From Bacteroidaceae bacterium (GTDB lineage Bacteria > Bacteroidota > Bacteroidia > Bacteroidales > Bacteroidaceae): a DNA stretch of 64,000 bases. Below the pieces are notes generated by a model. That model saw only the letters and a program-made list of their open reading frames with translations. It was not told the DNA's origin and did not search any database. Of this stretch, positions 12,371 to 62,980 are shown in pieces. Positions within the stretch are counted from its first letter, which is position 1. Each line of letters starts with the position of its first letter. The DNA is taken from NCBI GenBank assembly GCA_017464815.1, contig JAFTYI010000021.1, forward strand, positions 1 to 64,000, read 5' to 3'. A program made the position numbers and the translations under genes.

Positions 12371-12463
12371 GGCACGGATTACACGGATTGACACGGATTA
12401 TATTTGTTCTTATACCTATCAGGTTATAATATTATCCGTGTCCCCCCCCATGTAATCCGTGCC
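12371..12463. repeat. GGCACGGAT-type dispersed inverted repeat
   Basis: GGCACGGATTACACGGATT from 12371 faces ATCCGTG...GTAATCCGTGCC ending at 12463. The right arm is interrupted by a run of eight C (12442-12449). Same family as 6183-6246. Confidence 0.75.
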
Positions 12464-15727: not shown

Positions 15728-15839
15728 GGCACGGATTACGCGGATTACACGGATGGTAGACATCCTTTTTCCGTGTAATCCGCGTAGTTCCTTGAACAAG
15801 GTGAAAAGTTCCTTGAACAAGGCGAAAAAATCCGCGCCT
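15728..15839. repeat. GGCACGGAT-type inverted repeat with an internal 21-nt tandem repeat
   Basis: The left arm GGCACGGATTACGCGGATTA starts at 15728; the right arms are CCGTGTAATCCGCG (about 15771) and ATCCGCGCC (15830-15838). Between them AGTTCCTTGAACAAGGNGAAA occurs twice with a 21-nt period (near 15786 and 15807), each with the palindrome CCTTGAACAAGG. Confidence 0.75.
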
Positions 15840-18837: not shown

Positions 18838-20229
18838 TTAGTCGGTTCTTTCTGAAGCATTCACTTTCAGATTGCTTAAATCCAAATGATAAACCTGTTT
18901 TTCCTCTGTTGTGTATTTGCGTATGAACATCGTCATATATATTGGCAAGTATAGTGTACGTCCATTGACGGACAGATTACCATTGCACAGTACGTACGCT
19001 TCAGAAATATCATACACATCGCCCGACATCAGATTGTTCAAGGCATTATGCCGTTCGTATGCTTTGCCTGACTTCACTTCAACAGGCACTGCTTTCCCCT
19101 TCTGTTCGATGATGAAGTCCAGCTCACCCATCTTTTTATTGTTGAAATAATGCAAATTATGTCCATACCCTCCAAAGCCATGAGCAACAAGCTCCTGAGC
19201 CACAAAGTTTTCATAAATGGCTCCGTAGTTCATGTCTATCTCGCCACTCAACAATTTCAACTGAATGCCCGAAGCATATTGGCAGGCCAACAACCCCACA
19301 TCATTCTGGAAGAGTTTGAATAGATTGCGCTGTTCGTCCAGTTTCAACGGCGCCATGGGTCTGTTCACATTGTAGGTAGGAATGGCCACACCGGCATCCT
19401 TCAGCCAAAGAAAACTGTCCTCAAAACGGGAAAAGCGAGCACGTTCGTTCAGATTCTTCAGGATGAACCGTTTATTTTTCGCATCAAGTTCAGAAGGTAT
19501 CAAGTCAAAAATCTCATCAATTTTCAATTTCCTATCTGAATCATACTGGCTGATGTCCCAACGATAGAGAGTAAGAATTTCGCGCTGTTTATCTTCCACC
19601 ACATTCAAGTCGTTCGTGTCAAGATAGGCCTGAACTGAAGCAGGCATACCACCTACCACCAAATACAGCCGTACAAGTTTGATGAGCGAATCATGGATTA
19701 CATTGTCAACAGGAATCTGTTTCTGCCATGCGTGGTGCAAGGATTCAAAGACTTCATCGGAAAGCCCTAAAGCACATGAGAATTCCTCAAGGTCGAGCGG
19801 AAAGACCTCTTTCACAGCCATATACCCTACAGGTACACTGCGTATATCCTTCAACTCCACTCCCAAAAGACTGCCACTGAGAGCATAACGACAACTTCCC
19901 TCATCAACAAGAAACTTAATCCAAGTCATAGCCTCAGGACACTGCTGCACCTCATCCAGAAATATCAGAGTATTGGGCAAAGAGGTCTTCTTCTGTGTGT
20001 GGGCAGATATACGCAACAACACGTCCTTTGCACTTTGTGCCCCTTGAAAGATAACCTTTGCCGATTCATCCTCATAGAAGTTGATTTCTATCAGATTCAT
20101 CTTGTGAGTCGAGGCATATTTACGCACCGCAAACGTCTTCCCTGTCTGTCTGGCACCAGTCAAAAGCAGGGCAGACTTATTCCTTTCATAGTGATTTTCA
20201 ATCTCTTTGTCTAATTTTCTATTGACCAT
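18838..20229 (-). CDS. AAA-family ATPase with DUF4143 C-terminal domain
   Basis: 463 residues. Walker A is GARQTGKT (residues 25-32), Walker B is TLIFLDEVQQCPEA near residue 91. The C-terminal DUF4143 region contains GELDFIIEQKGKAVPVEVKSGK near residue 400, which has the D-x(n)-ExK spacing of PD-(D/E)XK nuclease folds. This widespread family has many copies per genome and no settled function. The longest frame starts at a TTG (20310) inside tandem repeats; ATG 20229 is preferred because the N-terminus then resembles the family (NRKLDKEIENHYERNKSALLL). Visibly richer in A/T than its neighbours, suggesting transfer. Confidence 0.85.
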   Translation of the reverse strand: MVNRKLDKEIENHYERNKSALLLTGARQTGKTFAVRKYASTHKMNLIEINFYEDESAKVIFQGAQSAKDVLLRISAHTQKKTSLPNTLIFLDEVQQCPEAMTWIKFLVDEGSCRYALSGSLLGVELKDIRSVPVGYMAVKEVFPLDLEEFSCALGLSDEVFESLHHAWQKQIPVDNVIHDSLIKLVRLYLVVGGMPASVQAYLDTNDLNVVEDKQREILTLYRWDISQYDSDRKLKIDEIFDLIPSELDAKNKRFILKNLNERARFSRFEDSFLWLKDAGVAIPTYNVNRPMAPLKLDEQRNLFKLFQNDVGLLACQYASGIQLKLLSGEIDMNYGAIYENFVAQELVAHGFGGYGHNLHYFNNKKMGELDFIIEQKGKAVPVEVKSGKAYERHNALNNLMSGDVYDISEAYVLCNGNLSVNGRTLYLPIYMTMFIRKYTTEEKQVYHLDLSNLKVNASERTD

Positions 20230-20230
20230 A

Positions 20231-20341
20231 TTACACTTTTTCAGGGTTGCCAACTCTCTTTTTTGACACTTTTCCAAGGCATTTTCACCCGATTTATGAC
20301 ACTTTTCCAAGGCATTTCAGGGCATTTTCTGACACTTTTCC
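20231..20341 (-). repeat. Four direct repeats with an exact 33-nt period upstream of the ATPase
   Basis: TGACACTTTTCC (plus strand) starts at 20264, 20297 and 20330 (the last lacking only the final C match), and a degenerate copy TTACACTTTTTC at 20231. Spacing is exactly 33 nt each time, i.e. about three DNA turns. The copies sit directly at the 5' end of the ATPase gene. Confidence 0.8.
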
Positions 20342-20427
20342 AAGTTTTCAAGGGCAAAAGTAGCAATATTTATTGGATTCATCACTATATTTTCCGTCTT
20401 TTTTCGCCAAAAGACATCTTTAAACAT

Positions 20428-20475: not shown

Positions 20476-20792
20476 TAGGTTATGGGCAATATACTGCACT
20501 AAATGCAGTTGTATCTACATAATAAATCAAACAATTGTGAATTACTAATTATAAATTCTGAATTATTTCACAGAATATGTTGAAGAACATAAAATGAGGT
20601 TCCAAACGAAGGATGAAATGGAATGCGAGCGTTCTTTACATCCACCAGTAATAAATCCCGCGCTTCTGTTTCTTTCCTATTTCGTTGAAGCAACGCACTA
20701 CGAAACGGGCAGACTTCCGCATAAATATGCATAAGGAAGGGAAGAGGAAGGCTTGGAGAGCTGGCCTCAAACGGGCGTTTCCACTCATCCGC

Positions 20793-20920
20793 TCCTAAAC
20801 ATGCGCGGAAGTTTAGGAGTGGTTGCATCCGTGCGCAGTTGCGCACCGTTGGAAATTCAGGAGTTCTTCGACGGACGTTTAGGAGCGAAAGAGCGGATGT
20901 TTAGGATAGGTACTGCCGAA
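20793..20920. repeat. GTTTAGGA array on a 22-nt grid
   Basis: GTTTAGGA at 20811, 20877 and 20899, with a degenerate ATTCAGGA at 20855; all starts differ by multiples of 22. An inverted copy TCCTAAAC at 20793-20800 forms a 9-bp stem with the 20811 copy (CTCCTAAAC/GTTTAGGAG). The unit at 20833 is not recognisable. Confidence 0.6.
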
Positions 20921-20967
20921 AGGCGTCGTCGGATAGAGTTTGCCATTGTTTTTATAACGCACTCGAA

Positions 20968-21003
20968 TGCATAATTATACACCCCTCACTGCATAATTAT
21001 GCA
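20968..21003. promoter_or_regulatory. Pair of TGCATAATTAT palindromes 22 nt apart (ARG-box-like)
   Basis: TGCATAATTATACA starts at 20968 and TGCATAATTATGCA at 20990. The form resembles ArgR operators (TGnATnnnnATnCA), but no arginine gene is adjacent. A related GCATAAATATGC lies at 20719-20730. It could equally be another member of the 22-nt repeat class. Confidence 0.35.
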
Positions 21004-21115
21004 AAAACGGCCGCACGAGAATCGCGTATATGCACACCTGTTTTCTTTCGCACGAAAAAGGAGCAGAATTTTAATCGGAACGTAAGTAACTGATGCTCAA
21101 CATTGTGACAAAGTT

Positions 21116-21146
21116 GCCTTAGCCTTGAATTAAGGTAGGCTTAGCC
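21116..21146 (-). repeat. CTTAGCC pair with 22-nt spacing, related to the array at 62893
   Basis: CTTAGCC starts at 21118 and 21140. The first copy lies in GCCTTAGCCTTG, the exact reverse complement of CAAGGCTAAGGC, which occurs twice in the array at 62893-62980. The minus strand also reads CTCATGGCTAAG, like the CTCAT...CTAAGG units there. Confidence 0.55.
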
Positions 21147-21349
21147 ATGAGATGGTGCAGACGAAGTAAAGCATACTTTCGATTTCCTGACATCTAAGAA
21201 GGCGAAATGTTTACAATTCAGATATATAATCCTTTGGTTGCGAATGGAAATGAAAAGAAAGAGAAAAGGGTACGTTCACCATTTTTAAAGATATTGGCTT
21301 TGCCATCTCAAATAAAAGTTGTTTCTTTGCATGAAATAAGACAAACTTG

Positions 21350-22363
21350 ATGAAGAAACACCTCAAAAGCATCATAAAAATAGTGTTGCCCCTTGCATTG
21401 GGGGGCGGGATTCTGTGGTGGACGTACCGCGACTTTGACTTCTCGGCCGTGAGCCACACGCTGCTCTACGAGATGAACTTGTGGTGGCTGGCATTGTCGC
21501 TGGTGTTCGAAGTGTTGAGCCATGTGCTCCGCGGCTTGCGATGGAAGCAGACACTGGAGCCGTTGGGCGAACGGCCACGCACGGAGACGTGCATCAACGC
21601 CATCTTCCTCTCCTACGCAGTGAGCCTGCTGATTCCCCGCTCGGGCGAGGTGGCACGGTGTGGCGTGCTGAAGAGGTACGACGGGGTGTCGTTCACCAAG
21701 TCGCTGGGCACGGTGGTGACGGAGCGCGTGGTGGACATGGTGTGTGTCCTGCTTATCGCCCTCATGGTGGTGATGCTCCAGTTCGATGTGTTGCGCACTT
21801 TTTTTATGGAAAAAGGAATGAGCATGAATGAGCTTGCCTCTGTGGCCACTTCATCCTACCTCATTCCAGGAGTGATGTTGGCGCTGGTCGTCTGCATCGC
21901 CGGATACTTCCTGCTCCTCCGCTTGTCGATAGCGGAGAAGGTGAAGGGAGTGCTGCGCAACCTGTGGGAAGGCATCTGCTCGGTGCGGCGGGTGAAGAAC
22001 GTGCCGCTCTTCCTCCTCTACAGCGCGGGCGTTTGGGGGAGCTACATCATGCAGTTCTATCTGACATTCTACTGTTTTCCGTTCACGGCCGACCTTGGTT
22101 TCAAGGCAGGACTGGCGGTGTTCATCACCACGAGTTTTGCCGTGTTGGTGCCTACGCCGAACGGAGCGGGACCTTGGCACTACGTGGTCATCTCGATGCT
22201 GACGCTGCTCTATGGAGTGAGCGAAAGCGACGCGGGCACCTTTGCCCTCATCGTGCATGGCACACAGACGGCGGCGCTCATCCTCTTGGGAGTGTATGCG
22301 ATGATAAGGATACTCCCCAAGGGCAGCCCCTCCCCCAACCCCTCCCTATATGGAGGGGAGTAG
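21350..22363 (+). CDS. Flippase-like integral membrane protein (UPF0104 / LPG synthase TM family)
   Basis: 337 residues with about eight membrane segments, of the family containing the transmembrane part of lysylphosphatidylglycerol synthase (lysylPG flippase-like). Conserved patterns seen: LSHVLRGLRW near residue 57, IFLSYAVSLLIPRSGEVAR near 85 and LVPTPNGAGPWH near 262. Probably moves or handles lipids in the inner membrane; substrate unknown. The frame begins with TTG at 21347; ATG 21350 is used. The last residues, SPSPNPSLYGGE, and the stop codon are encoded by a C-rich inverted repeat, so the native C-terminus has been altered or created by the repeat. Confidence 0.82.
   Translation: MKKHLKSIIKIVLPLALGGGILWWTYRDFDFSAVSHTLLYEMNLWWLALSLVFEVLSHVLRGLRWKQTLEPLGERPRTETCINAIFLSYAVSLLIPRSGEVARCGVLKRYDGVSFTKSLGTVVTERVVDMVCVLLIALMVVMLQFDVLRTFFMEKGMSMNELASVATSSYLIPGVMLALVVCIAGYFLLLRLSIAEKVKGVLRNLWEGICSVRRVKNVPLFLLYSAGVWGSYIMQFYLTFYCFPFTADLGFKAGLAVFITTSFAVLVPTPNGAGPWHYVVISMLTLLYGVSESDAGTFALIVHGTQTAALILLGVYAMIRILPKGSPSPNPSLYGGE
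22327..22361 (+). repeat. C-rich palindromic repeat overlapping the flippase 3' end
   Basis: CCCCTCCCCCAACCCCTCC and TATATGGAGGGGAG follow one another, giving a local hairpin. The reverse-complement version is at 22444-22478, so the two copies can also pair with each other across the 100-nt spacer. Confidence 0.7.
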
Positions 22364-31030: not shown

Positions 31031-31912
31031 TCATCCCTTCTTTTCCCTGCGGTATTCGCGAGGCGAACAGCCCATCACCTGCTTGAAGAGGCGCGAGAAG
31101 TAGTAGGGGTCTTCGATGCCCACCTTGAAACAGACTTGATTGACCTTCATGTCGGTGAAGTCGAGCAGTTCGCATGCCCGCTGGATGCGCAGCTGGTTGA
31201 AGTAGGCCATCGGGCTTTGTCCCGTGGCTTCGCAGAAGAGCGACGAGAAGTGCGAGGGGGAATATCCCGTGAAAGCAGCCATGTCGGCCAGCGTCAGTTT
31301 GCGTTCGATATGCTCGTTCATGAAGTGGACGACGGACTCCAACAGGGTGTCGTCGGCGTGGCTCTCGGCATTGCGGTATTGCACCCAATAGCAGAGCGAC
31401 CCGAGGAAGTGGTGGAAAAGGGAGCTGACGTAGTTGAGATTGTCGCGACTGTATCCCAACTTCAGAATGTTGAACATCTCCTCAAACAAGGCAATGCGCT
31501 GGTTGATGCGTGATTGCACACCCGGATTGAGCGTCACGGGCGAGGCGCCTCCGGTGACGTAGCTCGAGGCCAATGTGCCCTTGAAGTGAATCCAATAGAT
31601 TGTCCAGGGGTTCTCCTTGTCGGCTCCGTACTCATGCGGCACACCGGCCGGAAGAATGACGAACTGGTTGGCGCTAATCGTGTGTCTCACCCCACCGGCC
31701 ACACACCACCCTGCCCCATCGGTGCAATAGATGAGGATGTATTGCCCGATGCCGTTGGTGCGCGCCCTGTAGTGGTGGGCCGCACGGGGATAATAGCCCA
31801 TGTCCGTCACGTGCAATGCGGCCGACAGGGGGCTGCTCTCCATCTGCTCAACTATCATGCGGGGCAACACGATGGCGCGTTCGCCCTTGAATCCGTCCTT
31901 CAAATGTGGCAT
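31031..31912 (-). CDS. AraC-family transcriptional regulator
   Basis: 293 residues. The N-terminal part is a cupin-like sugar-binding domain (YILIYCTDGAGWCVAGG near residue 58, LPAGVPHEYGAD near 86) and the C-terminal 100 residues carry two helix-turn-helix motifs (LADMAAFTGYSPSHFSSLF and VCFKVGIEDPYYFSRLFK). ATG 31912 is used because a -7 element at 31938-31945 excludes the longer frame. Divergent from the MFS transporter gene, with a 22-nt array between them; it is likely to control that transporter and the CAZyme genes after it, with a sugar as inducer. Confidence 0.88.
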   Translation of the reverse strand: MPHLKDGFKGERAIVLPRMIVEQMESSPLSAALHVTDMGYYPRAAHHYRARTNGIGQYILIYCTDGAGWCVAGGVRHTISANQFVILPAGVPHEYGADKENPWTIYWIHFKGTLASSYVTGGASPVTLNPGVQSRINQRIALFEEMFNILKLGYSRDNLNYVSSLFHHFLGSLCYWVQYRNAESHADDTLLESVVHFMNEHIERKLTLADMAAFTGYSPSHFSSLFCEATGQSPMAYFNQLRIQRACELLDFTDMKVNQVCFKVGIEDPYYFSRLFKQVMGCSPREYRREKKG

Positions 31913-31937
31913 TGTCAACTGGTTTCCTTTCTGCCTG

Positions 31938-31945
31938 CAAAAGTA
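31938..31945 (-). promoter_or_regulatory. Putative promoter of the araC-like gene
   Basis: CAAAAGTA reads TACTTTTG on the minus strand, a -7 match 25 nt upstream of the chosen ATG. No clear -33 element. Confidence 0.5.
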
Positions 31946-32100
31946 ACATTTTCTAGTCACATTCCCTACATAATAAGGAAGAATTCTGATGAATTTCCCT
32001 CCGTCGTCCCCACCTTATACGGCGCTTTGCGCTTGGATGCCCATCTGAATCCCCTCACATCCCTACTTTCAAGCGATAAGACCTATGACTTTTACACCTT

Positions 32101-32180
32101 ATCACAGATGTGATTAAGTCTGCTCACGGATGTGATTAAGTTTGCTCACAGATGTGATTAGACTTCATCACATCTGTGAT
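32101..32180. repeat. Four-unit array with exact 22-nt period between AraC and MFS genes
   Basis: 14-nt palindromic cores at 32101 (ATCACAGATGTGAT), 32123 (CTCACGGATGTGAT), 32145 (CTCACAGATGTGAT) and 32167 (ATCACATCTGTGAT). The starts are exactly 22 nt apart. The last copy has the core reverse-complemented, so the last two can form a 13-bp stem with an 8-nt loop. The spacers are TAAGTCTG, TAAGTTTG and TAGACTTC. It lies about 100 nt upstream of the transporter's -7 element, within 31913-32325, which otherwise holds only the two promoters. It could be an operator array for the AraC protein or a member of a repeat class (see findings). Confidence 0.85.
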
Positions 32181-32285
32181 AAGGCCCAACGATAAGGAGA
32201 TGAAGGGAGGAAGAACGCGAGAGCATCGTAATATTCTCCATCTTCTTTATCTCTCCATTCTATGCCACCCGTCGGCATAAATGTG

Positions 32286-32293
32286 TACTTTTG
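32286..32293 (+). promoter_or_regulatory. Putative promoter of the MFS sugar transporter gene
   Basis: TACTTTTG matches the -7 element; 32 nt before the chosen ATG. No clear -33 element, as expected if an activator such as the AraC protein is needed. Confidence 0.5.
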
Positions 32294-32325
32294 CGGCAAT
32301 TAATCACAAATCAAACATTCATCTC

Positions 32326-33753
32326 ATGAACAAACTGAATCAAAAGTTTATCTATTTCATCTGCCTCGTGTCGGCCATGGGCGGCCTGCTCTTCGGCTAC
32401 GACTGGGTGGTGATTGGCGGTGCAAAGCCTTTCTATGAACTGTTTTTCGGCATCTCCGACTCGCCGGTGATGCAGGGTGTGGCCATGTCAACGGCCCTCG
32501 TTGGTTGCCTCATCGGTGCGATGGTGGCGGGTGCGATGGCCGACAAGTACGGACGCAAGCCGTTGCTCATCTGGTCGGCGGTGCTCTTCACCGTGTCGGC
32601 GGTGGCCACGGGCGCGTTCGACGACTTCACCTTATTCAATATAGCACGCTTCATCGGAGGCGTGGGCATCGGCATTGCCTCGGCCCTCTCGCCCATGTAC
32701 ATTGCCGAAGTGGCGCCCACGGCGGTGCGCGGACGGTTGGTGTCGCTCAACCAGATGACCATCGTGCTGGGCATCTTGGGCGCACAGATATGCAACTGGC
32801 AGATTGCCGAACCGCTTCCCGAGGCCGTAGCCGCCATGCAAGTGTCGGGCGTAGCGGTGCAAGAGGCTATGGCTGATGCCTTTATCCTTGAATCATGGAA
32901 TGGCCAGATGGGCTGGCGCTGGATGTTTTGGGCCGAAGCCTTGCCGGCGGCTCTCTTCCTCATCCTGGCCTTCTTCATCCCCGAAAGCCCGCGCTACATG
33001 GCCATGAAGGGCGAGGACGGGAAAGCCCTTGCCACTCTGTCGATGATAGGTGGCGAGGAGTATGCCCGCGAGGAGCTGACCGTCATCAATGCCACCCGTG
33101 CGGCCGAAGCCGAACAGGCAGGATTGAAGACCCTCTTCACCCGCAAGTATGCCGCCGTGCTCACACTGGGTATCGTGGTAGCCGTCTTCCAGCAATGGTG
33201 TGGCACAAACGTCATCTTCAACTATGCCCAAGAGATTTTCTCTGCCGCCGGCTATAGCGTAGGCGACGTGCTTTTCAACATCGTCATCACCGGCGTGGCC
33301 AACGTCATCTTCACCATCGTGGCCCTTTTCACCATCGACCGCTGGGGACGCCGTTCATTGATGCTCTTCGGAGCCTCATCCTTGGCCATCATCTACCTCA
33401 TCCTGGGCACTTGCTATCATCTGCAAATCACCGGTTTCTTCATGGTCATCCTGGTGGTAGCCGCCATCTCGGCTTACGCCATGACCCTCGGCCCCGTCAC
33501 CTGGGTGCTGTTGGCCGAAATCTTCCCCAACAAAGTGCGCGGCGTGGCCATGGCCACCTGCACCTTTGCCCTCTGGACAGGATGCACCACCCTCACCTAC
33601 TCCTTCCCCTCGATGAATGCAGCCCTTGGCAGTAGCGGCACCTTCTGGATTTATGCCGCCATCTGCGCCGCCGGCTTCATCTATCTCTTCCGCCGTTGCC
33701 CCGAAACAAAGGGCATCTCCCTGGAGGAATTGGAAAAGAAATTGGTGAAGTAA
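32326..33753 (+). CDS. MFS sugar:proton symporter (XylE-like)
   Basis: 475 residues with about 12 membrane helices. Sugar transporter family signatures: GGLLFGYDWVVIGG near residue 20, DKYGRKPLL (loop 2-3) near 76, PESPRYMAMKG near 217 and the C-terminal PETKGISLEELEKKL. It imports a pentose or hexose with protons across the inner membrane. The ATG at 32326 is used because the promoter occupies 32286-32293. It heads the CAZyme run that follows and is divergent from the AraC regulator. No SusC/SusD importer is present in this locus. A tandem GGAACTATA spacer separates it from the DUF5107 gene. Confidence 0.9.
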   Translation: MNKLNQKFIYFICLVSAMGGLLFGYDWVVIGGAKPFYELFFGISDSPVMQGVAMSTALVGCLIGAMVAGAMADKYGRKPLLIWSAVLFTVSAVATGAFDDFTLFNIARFIGGVGIGIASALSPMYIAEVAPTAVRGRLVSLNQMTIVLGILGAQICNWQIAEPLPEAVAAMQVSGVAVQEAMADAFILESWNGQMGWRWMFWAEALPAALFLILAFFIPESPRYMAMKGEDGKALATLSMIGGEEYAREELTVINATRAAEAEQAGLKTLFTRKYAAVLTLGIVVAVFQQWCGTNVIFNYAQEIFSAAGYSVGDVLFNIVITGVANVIFTIVALFTIDRWGRRSLMLFGASSLAIIYLILGTCYHLQITGFFMVILVVAAISAYAMTLGPVTWVLLAEIFPNKVRGVAMATCTFALWTGCTTLTYSFPSMNAALGSSGTFWIYAAICAAGFIYLFRRCPETKGISLEELEKKLVK

Positions 33754-40224: not shown

Positions 40225-43200
40225 ATGACACACCGATTACCGACATTCATCCTTATCCTCTGCCTGACTCTATGCGGGCAGGCACAAAGCAGTATCGACC
40301 TCTCCGGCCTGTGGAGTTTCCAAATTGACCGCGAAGGGGTAGGCGAACAGGAACAGTGGTTCAGCGGGAAAAAGGCATTCGACGACACCATCCTGCTGCC
40401 CGGCTCGATGCCCCAGCGGCTGAAAGGCGACGACCCCACCCTGACGACTCCGTGGACAGGGACGCTCTACGACAGTTCGTTCTACTTCAACCCCGCGATG
40501 GAGGTTTATCGCCGGACGGGAAACATCAAGTTCCCCTTCTTCCTCACGCCCGACAAGCACTATGTGGGCCGCGCCTGGTATCAGCACACCGTCAGCGTGC
40601 CGCGCAACTGGCGGGGACAGCGCATTGTGCTCTCCCTTGAAAGGCCACACATACAGACGACCCTGTGGGTGAACGGCCGGCAAGTGGGTGTACAAAACTC
40701 CCTCTCGGTGCCGCACGTATATGATGTGACAGACTATGTGAAGCGGGGCGACAACACGCTGACCCTCTGCGTCGATAACCGACCCGAGACGGTGAAGGTG
40801 GGCGACGACTCGCACAGTCTGAGCGACCAGACGCAGGGAAACTGGAACGGCATCGTGGGCGAAATGTCCCTCACGGCCATGCCGAAGACCTACATTGCCG
40901 ACCTGCAGGTCTATCCCAATGTGGCAGAGAAGAACGCCCTTGTCAAGCTGAAGATTGAGGCCGATAAGAAAAAGACAATGACCGTTTCACTCGATGCCAC
41001 CAGTTTCAACACCCCCCTGCCCGAACAATCCTTCTCCGCCACGAAAGAGGTGACGCTGAATGTGGGAGAAAACGAAGTGGAGATGCTCCTCCCCTTGGGC
41101 GACAGCCCCTACCTGTGGGACGAGTTCTCCCCGTCGCTCTACCGCCTGAATGCCGAATTAATTCAAGGGGCAAAGGACAAAGGACAAAGGTCAAAATTCA
41201 TAATTCATAATTCAAGCACCACCTTTGGTATGCGCGACTTCCGCATCGAGGGCAAGTGGTTCTACGTCAACGGGCGGCAGACGATGCTGCGTGGCACAGT
41301 GGAGTGCTGTGTCTTCCCCCTGACGGGCTATGCGCCGATGGAGGTCGAGGAGTGGGAACGGGTGTTCCGCATCTGCCGCCAGTATGGGTTGAACCACATG
41401 CGCTTCCACTCCTACTGTCCGCCGCGGGCGGCATTCGAGGCGGCCGACCTCGTGGGCTTCTACCTGCAACCCGAGGGACCGAGTTGGCCCAACCACGGGG
41501 TGAAGCTGGGCGTGGGACAACCCATCGACCAGTACTTGATGGAGGAGACCATCCGGCTGAACCGCGAGTATGGTAATCACGCCTCATTCTGCATGTTGGC
41601 TTGTGGAAACGAACCGGCGGGCCGCTGGGTGGAATGGGTGACAGACTTCGTACACTATTGGCAGAAAGCCGACCCGCGCCACGTCTATACTGGTGCCTCG
41701 GTGGGCGGCGGATGGGCCTGGCAGCCGGCCAACGAGTTCCACGTGAAGGCCGGAGCACGCGGACTGGAGTGGGCCAAGCGCCGACCCGAGTCGTGGAGCA
41801 CCTTCAGCCACAAGATTGACACTGTGAGCCAGCCCTTCGTCTCCCACGAGACGGGACAGTGGAACTGCTACCCCAACTTTAACGAGATTGGCAAATACAC
41901 GGGCGTGAACAAAGCAAAGAACTTTGAGATTTTCCGCGACCTGCTGGCTCAAAACAGCATGGGACACCAGGGACAGGAGTTCCTGATGGCGAGCGGACGA
42001 TTGCAAGCCCTCTGCTACAAGCACGAATTGGAGCGCACCCTGCGCACGCCAAACTATGCGGGCTACCAGTTGCTGGCACTCAACGACTACAGCGGTCAAG
42101 GCAGTGCCGTCGTTGGCATCCTCGATGCCCTGTGGGGCGAGAAGGGCTACATCACTGCCCCCGAATGGCGACAGTTCTGCGCCCCCACCGTGCCATTGGC
42201 CAAGATGGACCGCTTCGTCTTCACCGACCGCGACACCATCCGCGCCACCATCGAGCTGAGCCACTTTGGCGAAACGCCGCTCACCAACGCCACCTTCCTA
42301 TATATAATAAAGGATAAGGAGGGCAAAGTGCTCCACACCCAGCAGCAACAAGTGAAGCAGGTGCCCATCGGTGGGCAGATACCGCTGACAGAACTTAAAT
42401 TTTTAGGCGCGGATTACGCGGATTACGCGGAAAAATATAATAATAACGAGAATAATAATAATTATAATAAATCCGCGTCATCCGCGAAATCCGCGCCTAA
42501 AAACGGTGCCGCATGGCAAGAGAAATCCGTGCCTAAAAACAGTTCCGCATGGCAAGCCAAACAACTCACCCTTGAAGTGCGCCTCACCGACTGCGACCAA
42601 TACCGCCAGCGACGCGCCGTGGGCGAAGGAACCTTGGAGCGTAATTACCCCGTGCACGAGGTGGTGAACAGCTGGGACCTGTGGGTATATCCCCAGCGCG
42701 AACTGACGGGCTATGAAGACCCCGACCTGATGGTGACCGACACACTCAGCCCCGAGGTCATCGCTCTGCTCGAGCGCGGCGGCAAGGTGCTGCTCACCGC
42801 TGCCGGACGGGTGGAGTACGGCAAGGGCATCGTGCAACACTTCGTGCCCACCTTCTGGAACACCTCGTGGTTCAAGATGCGTCCGCCACACACCGTCGGT
42901 TCGTGGATCGATGCCTCCCACCCACTCTTCCGCCACTTCCCCACCGACAACCACACCGGCCTCCAGTGGTGGGAGCTTGTCAACCGCGCCCAGTGCATGA
43001 TGACCGACCACATACCGGGCGAGTTCCACAGCATCGTCCAGCCCATCGACACGTGGTTCCTCAGCCGCCGCCTCAGCACCCTGTTCGAAGCCAAAGTGGG
43101 AAAAGGCCGTCTCATCATGACCAGCCTCGACCTTCGCAACAACCTCTCCACCCGCCCCGTGGCCCGCGAACTGATGCACGCGCTGTTGCAATACATGCAG

Positions 43201-44967: not shown

Positions 44968-45069
44968 AGACGCAGATGACGCGGATGACGCGGATAAATA
45001 GTTATAAGAATAACATGGATTGATAAAAAACAAAAAAAAGAATCCGCGTCATCTGCGTCATCTGCGTCT
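44968..45069. repeat. GCGGATGAC-type inverted repeat between GH43 and GH35
   Basis: AGACGCAGATGACGCGGATG (from 44968) faces CATCTGCGTCATCTGCGTCT (ending 45069): a 28-bp near-perfect stem of 9-nt units around an A-rich loop. Long hairpins like this inside an operon may lower expression of the downstream gene or protect the upstream mRNA. Confidence 0.85.
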
Positions 45070-47646: not shown

Positions 47647-47652
47647 CATCAA

Positions 47653-47714
47653 GTTTTTCATGGTATTAGATTTAAGGTTAATAAAGGTTGGGTCAAGGCG
47701 TTGACCCTTTTTTT
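47653..47714 (+). ncRNA. Candidate small RNA of about 60 nt with intrinsic terminator
   Basis: From the expected start near 47653 the transcript reads AAGTTTTTCATGGTATTAGA, then TTTAAGGTTAATAAAG, and ends in a perfect terminator, GGGTCAA-GGCG-TTGACCC (47690-47707) plus seven T (47708-47714). No ORF of useful length. Everything needed for an independent short RNA is present. I have an impression of similar leader sequences in other Bacteroidales, but cannot verify it. Confidence 0.6.
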
Positions 47715-47780
47715 ATGCCTATACGTCACCTCCCCCCCTTCATACAATCTCTTTCATACAGACAAAGGATGTAGAACGGG

Positions 47781-48860: not shown

Positions 48861-48868
48861 TATCTTTG
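48861..48868 (+). promoter_or_regulatory. Putative promoter of the HU-like gene
   Basis: TATCTTTG, a -7 match, 24 nt before the ATG. GTTG at 48841-48844 is 16 nt upstream, slightly close for a -33 element. Confidence 0.5.
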
Positions 48869-48891: not shown

Positions 48892-49350
48892 ATGAAAATA
48901 ACAGGAGATATTGACAAGGCTTCGCTTTCGTTGGAAATAGCCCGCCAGCCCGTGCCTTTTAAAGAAGAGGAGGTGATGTATTCCCTCCGAGTGAGTAAGC
49001 AGTCCGTCATTTCGTTTGAGAAATTGGCTTGTCGCGAAATGTCGGTGCGTGGTGTACGTCCCGCCATGGCCCGCATGGTGGCCGAGGAGTTGGGCGATGC
49101 CCTCCGCTCGTGGCTTTCGGCCGGTCATGCCGTCAACATTGCTGGTGTAGGCACCCTGCGCCCTGTGGTTAATAGCAAGGCACAAACACGCCCTCACGAC
49201 TGCTCTGTGGATGACATCCGCCTAGCCAAACTCCGTTTCTACCCCTCGCTAGAGATGAAGGAGATGTTTCGTGATGCCCACTACCACATCCGCAACCGCG
49301 AAGAGTTTCTTGCAAAATGGGAGCGAGAACAGAATGGTGAAGAGGAGTAA
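48892..49350 (+). CDS. HU-like DNA-binding protein (Bacteroidales type)
   Basis: 152 residues. The middle region (MSVRGVRPAMARMVAEELGD at about residue 43 and AGHAVNIAGVGTLRPVV near 75) follows the HU/IHF fold, with N-terminal and C-terminal extensions; the C-terminal 35 residues are helical and charged. Such divergent HU paralogues are common in Bacteroidales and may structure DNA locally. Single gene with its own promoter; the 23-nt array ends about 60 nt upstream of the ATG. Confidence 0.75.
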   Translation: MKITGDIDKASLSLEIARQPVPFKEEEVMYSLRVSKQSVISFEKLACREMSVRGVRPAMARMVAEELGDALRSWLSAGHAVNIAGVGTLRPVVNSKAQTRPHDCSVDDIRLAKLRFYPSLEMKEMFRDAHYHIRNREEFLAKWEREQNGEEE

Positions 49351-62792: not shown

Positions 62793-62892
62793 TAAAAGGG
62801 AGGAAATTTTTAACTTTTCGCCAAAAACACCTCCCAAGTGTGCAAATAGATGTTTTATAACATATTTCCGAAGACCAAAAACAGTGGCCATC

Positions 62893-62980
62893 TCATGTCA
62901 AGACAGTGGCCGACTCATCCCAAGGCTAAGGCCAGTTCATCCCAAGGCTAAGGCAGGCTCATCCTTGGGATAAGGTCTGT
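62893..62980. repeat. Four-unit array with exact 22-nt period between the glycogen operon and OMP gene
   Basis: TCAT starts at 62893, 62915, 62937 and 62959. Units two and three read TCATCCCAAGGCTAAGG; the fourth reads TCATCCTTGGGATAAGG, i.e. with CCCAAGG replaced by its reverse complement CCTTGGG in the same register. The first copy is degenerate. The last two units can form a 9-bp hairpin (ATCCCAAGG/CCTTGGGAT). Shares the 12-mer CAAGGCTAAGGC with 21116-21127. The remainder of 62694-63150 contains only the two promoters. Confidence 0.85.

Follow-up and report, generated by a model that had tools for sequence, protein, structure and literature searches.

Two-turn-phased palindromic rows in a Bacteroidaceae genome are associated with HU-HIG genes and may be binding sites of their products

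The window, i.e., the whole stretch of 64,000 nucleotides of a Bacteroidaceae bacterium (G000) analysed here, contains an 88-bp element between the divergent genes of an AraC-family regulator and an MFS sugar transporter. Four TCACRNNYGTGA palindromes, read directly from the sequence, follow one another within this element at a pitch of exactly 22 nt. The features of the locus are:

31034–31912, minus strand: AraC-family regulator with a cupin-type ligand domain, flanking gene
32097–32184, no strand: family-A element, 88 bp, ends CCTTATCAC...GTGATAAGG, four palindromic cores at 22-nt pitch
32102–32113, no strand: core 1, TCACAGATGTGA
32124–32135, no strand: core 2, TCACGGATGTGA
32146–32157, no strand: core 3, TCACAGATGTGA
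32168–32179, no strand: core 4, TCACATCTGTGA, the reverse complement of core 1
32286–32293, plus strand: TACTTTTG, which we take to be a Bacteroidetes-type –7 box, about 100 bp past the array and before the MFS transporter gene
32326–33753, plus strand: MFS sugar transporter, flanking gene

The longer open reading frame 31031–31960 was used in the family search of the AraC regulator. The ends of the element mirror each other (CCTT...AAGG), and the stretch 32102–32160 receives a TRF score of 104. A first-pass annotation of this DNA had described four palindromic cores in exact 22-nt steps, the last of them reverse-complemented, and both statements agree with the cores as read at 32102, 32124, 32146, and 32168. 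The asymmetry of a core resides mainly in its two centre bases, so that the 'inverted' core amounts to a GA/TC swap.

Three more arrays that had been claimed for the window are real as well, and each of them is also dispersed in the genome:

48755–48823, no strand: array B, three palindromes GTGYAGTGCSGCACTRCAC at 23-nt pitch, dispersed, seven places
62881–62970, no strand: array C, CTTANCCTTGGGATAAG-type palindromes at 22-nt pitch, dispersed, 46 match rows
20634–21216, plus strand: element D, a dispersed repeat of about 584 bp with 22-nt-phased TTTAGGA, TGCATAATTATGCA and family-C boxes (22-nt phase at 20780–20897; 28 match rows)

Besides the AraC–MFS place, a BLAST search with the array finds related family-A copies at seven more contig places in this genome, including a fragment at a contig start; the array is therefore not a chance arrangement. 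All seven complete copies (this array and six others) have four cores, 10-nt linkers, and no insertion or deletion, array B has three units in each of the seven copies laid out, and the three complete family-A rows of the relative G006 have five units each. Along the row, the centres and linkers of the 15 family-A copies laid out take either orientation. Since the cores are palindromes with freely varying centres, the in-register inverted last unit, put forward earlier as the defining feature, is not a rule. By eye, the sequence common to the copies extends only about 12 nt past the row at either side, and the ends are mirrored over about 20 nt. Element D is nearly constant in length (583–590 bp in 13 copies with ends set by hand), carries a family-C row at one end, and its copies match that of the window at 68–89% identity along most of their length with little net length change, two further copies being 99% identical to it over 166 bp. 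The A and B copies occupy gaps of all three kinds, tandem, convergent, and divergent, and their called neighbours are unrelated genes; some copies, placed at the end of a contig, have a neighbour on one side only. No regulon is seen among the genes that flank the dispersed copies. A DUF4143/AAA_14-type ATPase gene at window 18838–20310 adjoins element D, and genes of this type adjoin two array-B copies (L020 and L021, labelled by eye). Separately, 9-nt tandem repeats of the CACGGATTA / CGCGGATTA type and GACGCGGAT / ATCTGCGTC occur at window positions 12373–12400, 15730–15754, 42408–42431, 44969–44995, and 45042–45068.

Among relatives, a two-unit family-A pattern is present in 5 of 61 near relatives, this genome included, and this genome alone has it among 395 genomes drawn across the phylum. 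The AraC–MFS orthologues of G006 and G014 are without the array, both genomes being too diverged for a base-level empty site, and G006 keeps the promoter-proximal stretch with TACTTTTG; G002, G005, and G013 were not counted here, their transporter neighbour being different or unmatched. The gap between the genes of glutamate dehydrogenase (GDH) and NDP kinase, on the other hand, holds a family-A array in both this genome and G013, which indicates that at least some rows are old in place. G012 was rejected as an empty site for that gap, as its NDP kinase gene adjoins another gene.

The pitch is common to rows of many sequences. A scan of 858 kb of this genome for triplets of units with a common pitch, whether in direct or in-register inverted orientation, finds 13, 33, and 21 intergenic arrays at 21, 22, and 23 nt, respectively. 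The periodicity was to be regarded as chance, according to the first-pass annotation, if there were no further arrays or if periods of 21, 24, and 25 nt were equally common; it withstands this check, with no arrays at 24–26 nt and two at 16–20 nt. The first sample (458 kb, the window and 20 stretches) gives 9, 16, and 10 intergenic arrays at 21, 22, and 23 nt, none at 24–26 nt, two at 18 nt, none at 16, 17, 19, or 20 nt, and five at 33 nt, and a single mononucleotide shuffle of it in 100-bp blocks yields one array over all periods from 14 to 45. The second sample (400 kb) gives 4, 17, and 11, with none at 14–20 and 24–26 nt. Many of its stretches covered known family hits, so that the counts without families A–D are the fair ones, i.e., 4, 7, and 7 (18 arrays) at 21–23 nt versus none at 14–20 nt and three at 24–30 nt. 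The cores are many unrelated sequences, mostly palindromes, and some are not evidently palindromic. The five intergenic arrays at 33 nt, or three helical turns (window 20229–20348, L065, L071, L072, and L075), have no counterpart in the second sample; TCTAGA boxes in steps of about 10–11 nt, one helical turn, are seen by eye beside an MFS gene of G002 (L234, about 1390–1500).

The peak at 22 nt reappears in a set of 80 loci from named records (781 kb, mostly Bacteroidales by title and all picked for an AraC relative), with 12 intergenic arrays, two of which are the same array in two species, besides one each at 21 and 23 nt, two at 24 nt, and three more at 22 nt outside called gaps. Samples of relatives hold three arrays at 21–23 nt in 332 kb of the genus and family (two of them in stretches picked for holding family A), two in 248 kb of the order, and one in 317 kb of the class and phylum. 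The 67 intergenic arrays at 21–23 nt of this genome lie in tandem (25), convergent (23), and divergent (19) gaps, as compared with 33.8, 14.5, and 18.7 expected from intergenic length (chi-square p = 0.025), and two further arrays lie inside called genes. Convergent gaps are somewhat over-represented, and divergent gaps show no enrichment over these 858 kb; a location always between divergent genes, as first suggested, describes the four arrays of the window and does not extend to the genome.

Directly behind array B, 68 bp from its end, begins a gene of the HU-HIG family:

48892–49350, plus strand: HU-HIG (PF18291) gene, with TATCTTTG at 48861–48868 between array B and the gene

The genome has 17 PF18291 matches, all of which are included here and two of which are plain HU-sized (about 90 residues). 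Nine of them have an array of 21–24 nt pitch within 300 bp upstream of the start, each with its own core, versus 39 of 529 sampled genes (p = 2e-6), where the start is the ATG nearest to the match for HU-HIG and that of the gene caller for the background. Restricting the background to genes whose gap measures 150 bp or more gives 38 of 284 (p = 2.5e-4), and to those with 250 bp or more, 33 of 193 (p = 0.0016); when its seven HU-HIG genes are removed, it is 35 of 522 (p = 1e-6). At eight of the 17 matches no array was scored. Uncounted are C12, with GAGTCG/CGACTC boxes by eye that resemble rows in G014, G005, and G002, and C24, whose family-C array lies more distant from the start, at –323 to –252. 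The rows also lie closer to HU-HIG genes, the median distance from row end to gene start being 74 bp for the nine HU-HIG genes and 149 bp for 35 other genes (p = 3e-5). Among the 39 row-bearing genes, HU-HIG is the only Pfam family matched more than once (4 of 39, two having no match; tables read by eye).

The hypothesis of such an association arose from loci of G006, G013, and the window. Matches in relatives were taken in score order, leaving out this genome and the already seen C33 of G013, and dropping loci with less than 300 bp upstream (two in a first set and one in a second). Pooled, 12 of 36 HU-HIG matches have an array, versus 1 of 151 genes of the genus and family (1 of 153 for the order). 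The first set contributes 7 of 17, including C32 of G006, which was known beforehand, and L317 of G015, a poor palindrome (0.46) as some counted rows are. The second contributes 5 of 19 (p = 6e-5 versus 1 of 151), with four of the five hits from G017; excluding that genome leaves 1 of 12 (p = 0.14) in the second set and 8 of 28 (p = 1e-6) in the two combined. A TAnnTTTG box is found past or near the row end in 13 of the 22 array-bearing HU-HIG loci, at varying relative position. In the 80 named-record loci no HU-HIG ORF was found, and the arrays there thus stay unlinked.

Several cores that stand before HU-HIG genes recur elsewhere. Within the sampled 858 kb, the core of array B (C52) is found as a row at four further places, that of the row at C1 at three, that of C30, whose own locus lies outside the sample, at two, and that of C19 at one, where the null means are 0 to 0.3. 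The word GACATC-TT-GATGTC of C56 recurs as an array at C39 and, by eye, also at C15 and C24. The cores of C37 and C39:100569 recur in no array of the sample, and that of C11 only in its own. Family-A-type rows precede HU-HIG genes in G006 (C32), G017 (two genes), and G013 (C33), and in both G006 and G017 a genome-specific linker type is common to the dispersed family-A-like rows and the rows before HU-HIG genes. Family A precedes none of the 17 HU-HIG genes found in this genome, which is 79% complete. The same core is kept by a close pair of HU-HIG proteins that are 86% identical (C11 of G000 and C23 of G007). Over a wider range, protein identity and core similarity show no significant relation (Mantel test, rho 0.15, p = 0.07 for 24 proteins and p = 0.24 for 19 non-redundant ones, C12 of G000 and L317 of G015 having been left out beforehand). 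In one HU-HIG subgroup about 78 residues follow the Pfam domain. The protein of C33 in G013 matches HU structures in its HU part (best E = 2e-4) and, in its C-terminal part, a winged helix weakly and below the cut-off (GMT-wHTH, E = 0.0019); for the HU-HIG protein of the window, no solved relative scores better than E = 0.11.

Taken together, the sequences lead us to give roughly 55% probability to the reading that the rows are sites to which HU-HIG proteins bind cooperatively and in helical phase, located in the promoters of their own genes and scattered elsewhere. The array would be a ready-made operator row for a DNA-binding protein of two-fold symmetry, with one dimer per palindrome of 12–14 bp, and the pitch of 22 bp, or two helical turns, would place neighbouring dimers on the same face of the helix and allow them to bind cooperatively. 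The most likely readers are the HU-HIG proteins, a family of multiple paralogues in these genomes, with an HU domain and, in one subgroup, a C-terminal part that may be a winged helix. In HU itself this domain bends DNA. A paralogue tends to have a row with a core of its own a short way upstream of its gene, as autoregulation would require, and the rows of matching core that are scattered through intergenic DNA could be further sites of the same protein. For family A, the reader would be a HU-HIG subgroup that recognises TCAC/GTGA. The dispersed copies may serve regulation or architecture, or have no function. As for the original suggestion of a binding array for a DNA-bending or sequence-specific protein, the palindromic cores, the strict 21–23 nt phasing, and the link to genes of the HU fold point the same way, and we infer the binding from them.

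A purely selfish dispersed repeat of the MITE or BIME kind, in which the rows are substrates of a transposase or of recombination and their proximity to HU-HIG genes is incidental, appears rather unlikely, although it ranks first among the alternatives to HU-HIG binding. The dispersed copies beside unrelated genes, the mirrored ends, the absence of the array at the AraC–MFS orthologues of G006 and G014, and, for element D, the nearly constant length and the two copies of 99% identity are what such a repeat would leave behind. It does not predict the enrichment and closeness of rows at HU-HIG genes, nor one common pitch across many unrelated cores; moreover, the family-A row is kept between GDH and NDP kinase in two genomes, and the genome contains a single Y1 transposase-like match (PF01797, 27.5 bits; 79%-complete genome), which makes a RAYT/REP system appear less likely. 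The earlier notion of a mobile repeat is supported in part, by the dispersed copies and by the two relatives without the array at the AraC–MFS place; the rows may have spread by transposition or by recombination.

An element acting as RNA, where the transcribed row folds into one long hairpin that serves as a terminator or RNA stabiliser, or else a DNA cruciform, is improbable. The stretch 32095–32190 does fold far better than its shuffles on either strand (z about –10; about –6 for array B), and the slight excess of convergent gaps noted above (23 versus 14.5 expected; p = 0.025 over all classes) would suit such an element. Yet the complementarity of the variable centres is 0.42 for units that would pair in the hairpin (n = 30) and 0.42 for other unit pairs (n = 72), and that of the linkers is 0.63 versus 0.64 (15 copies); lacking this compensatory signal, the long hairpin, as RNA or as cruciform, was rejected. 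The symmetry sits within each core, a simple scan finds no terminator-like site in 31900–32400, and the sole Rfam match in the window lies elsewhere, the arrays having no match at the gathering score and none up to E = 1 in 20500–21400. As an observation apart, FopS (Rfam RF04319), a paralogous Bacteroidetes sRNA family, is located at window 47651–47717. Least probable of all, and already disfavoured, is a conventional operator belonging to the adjacent AraC or sugar-transport gene, which would suit the position between the two genes and upstream of the –7-like box but not the related copies at seven other places, beside unrelated genes where callable, or the promoter-proximal stretch that G006 retains without the array.

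Several rows of family A, read here as candidate HU-HIG sites, also have an insertion sequence close by. The left end CAGGGCARACGCATTATATNTTTTACC, with one mismatch allowed, is present seven times in 15 genomes of the genus, twice in G000 and five times in G002:

ISAs1-like insertion loci: L345 and L347 (G000); L346 and L348–L351 (G002); L476 (Bacteroides finegoldii, in addition to these seven)

In these two genomes, six of the seven left ends follow the last core of a family-A row at a distance of 23 or 24 bp, and the seventh has a weaker two-unit match nearby. The 8 bp that precede the insertion vary from genome to genome, but four of the six end in TACTTTT, so that a target-sequence preference may be involved. 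On the right, the element cuts into a family-A row in G000 (C40) and ends just upstream of a HU-HIG gene in G002 (C33). Of two left ends in Bacteroides finegoldii, one directly adjoins a palindromic row of 22-nt pitch, and none of the three right ends with flanks shows an array. The ISAs1 label rests on one annotated hit of 65% identity. A scan of viral contigs for the end gave non-specific 15-mer matches and was set aside.

These observations are compatible with a more far-reaching and tentative proposal, that of an addressing code of the Bacteroidales. Each HU-HIG paralogue would have its own palindromic word, repeated at a pitch of 21–24 bp both in the promoter of its gene and at scattered positions. 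Every such row would nucleate a phased and bent nucleoprotein block, which at least one ISAs1-like element would take as its landing mark, inserting at a fixed 23–24 bp beyond. According to textbooks, HU proteins bend DNA non-specifically. If HU-HIG paralogues are instead sequence-specific and autoregulated, with private phased sites, the Bacteroidales would gain a layer of chromosome organisation or regulation, and the scattered 22–23 nt repeats of these genomes would be explained. The literature searched yielded no account of such a layer, nor, by titles and listings, of phased arrays before HU-HIG genes. The predicted site of a dozen HU-HIG proteins stands upstream of their own genes, which makes the proposal directly testable.

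Comparison with known systems places the rows among, but apart from, several classes of repeats and operators. The phage repressor operators and plasmid iterons are likewise repeated sites about two helical turns apart, with cooperative binding and autoregulation, whereas the rows described here are chromosomal and dispersed, with many specificities per genome. The BIME/REP sequences of enterobacteria are dispersed intergenic palindromes in mosaic arrays, some of which are bound by IHF or gyrase. We know of no fixed two-turn pitch among them, and the present rows differ in falling into many core families, in a genome with a single Y1_Tnp match. MITEs in general have terminal inverted repeats and dispersed copies, and family A has both.

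A HU-like gene linked to a nearby inverted repeat has a precedent in the Bacteroidales, the HU protein PG0121 of Porphyromonas gingivalis, which is tied to a 77-bp inverted repeat at the capsule locus (PMC3969353). That case concerns a single locus, the abstract and headings of the report mention no phased array, and the binding is there called non-discriminatory (PMC3969353). The BrickBuilt MITE of the same species is closer in layout. Passages of its report (PMC4596501) describe intergenic 23-nt tandem units without spacers, with 19 dispersed copies in one strain, predicted stem-loops, and one core family in 1 to 22.8 units between a leader and a tail with IS5-type ends; one of the 19 copies, BrickBuilt_14, lies beside a gene for a PF00216 DNA-binding protein. 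The relation to BrickBuilt proposed at first holds for the intergenic tandem rows of about 23 nt in Bacteroidales, here of 22 nt (family A) and 23 nt (array B), and a family link is not supported. As far as those passages go, BrickBuilt has a long leader and tail with IS5-type inverted repeats, where family A shares, by eye, about 12 nt per side, and a variable number of units, where the number here is small and fixed (four in 7 of 7 copies for A, three in 7 of 7 for B); the rows of this genome are further set apart by their many core families and by their link to HU-HIG genes.
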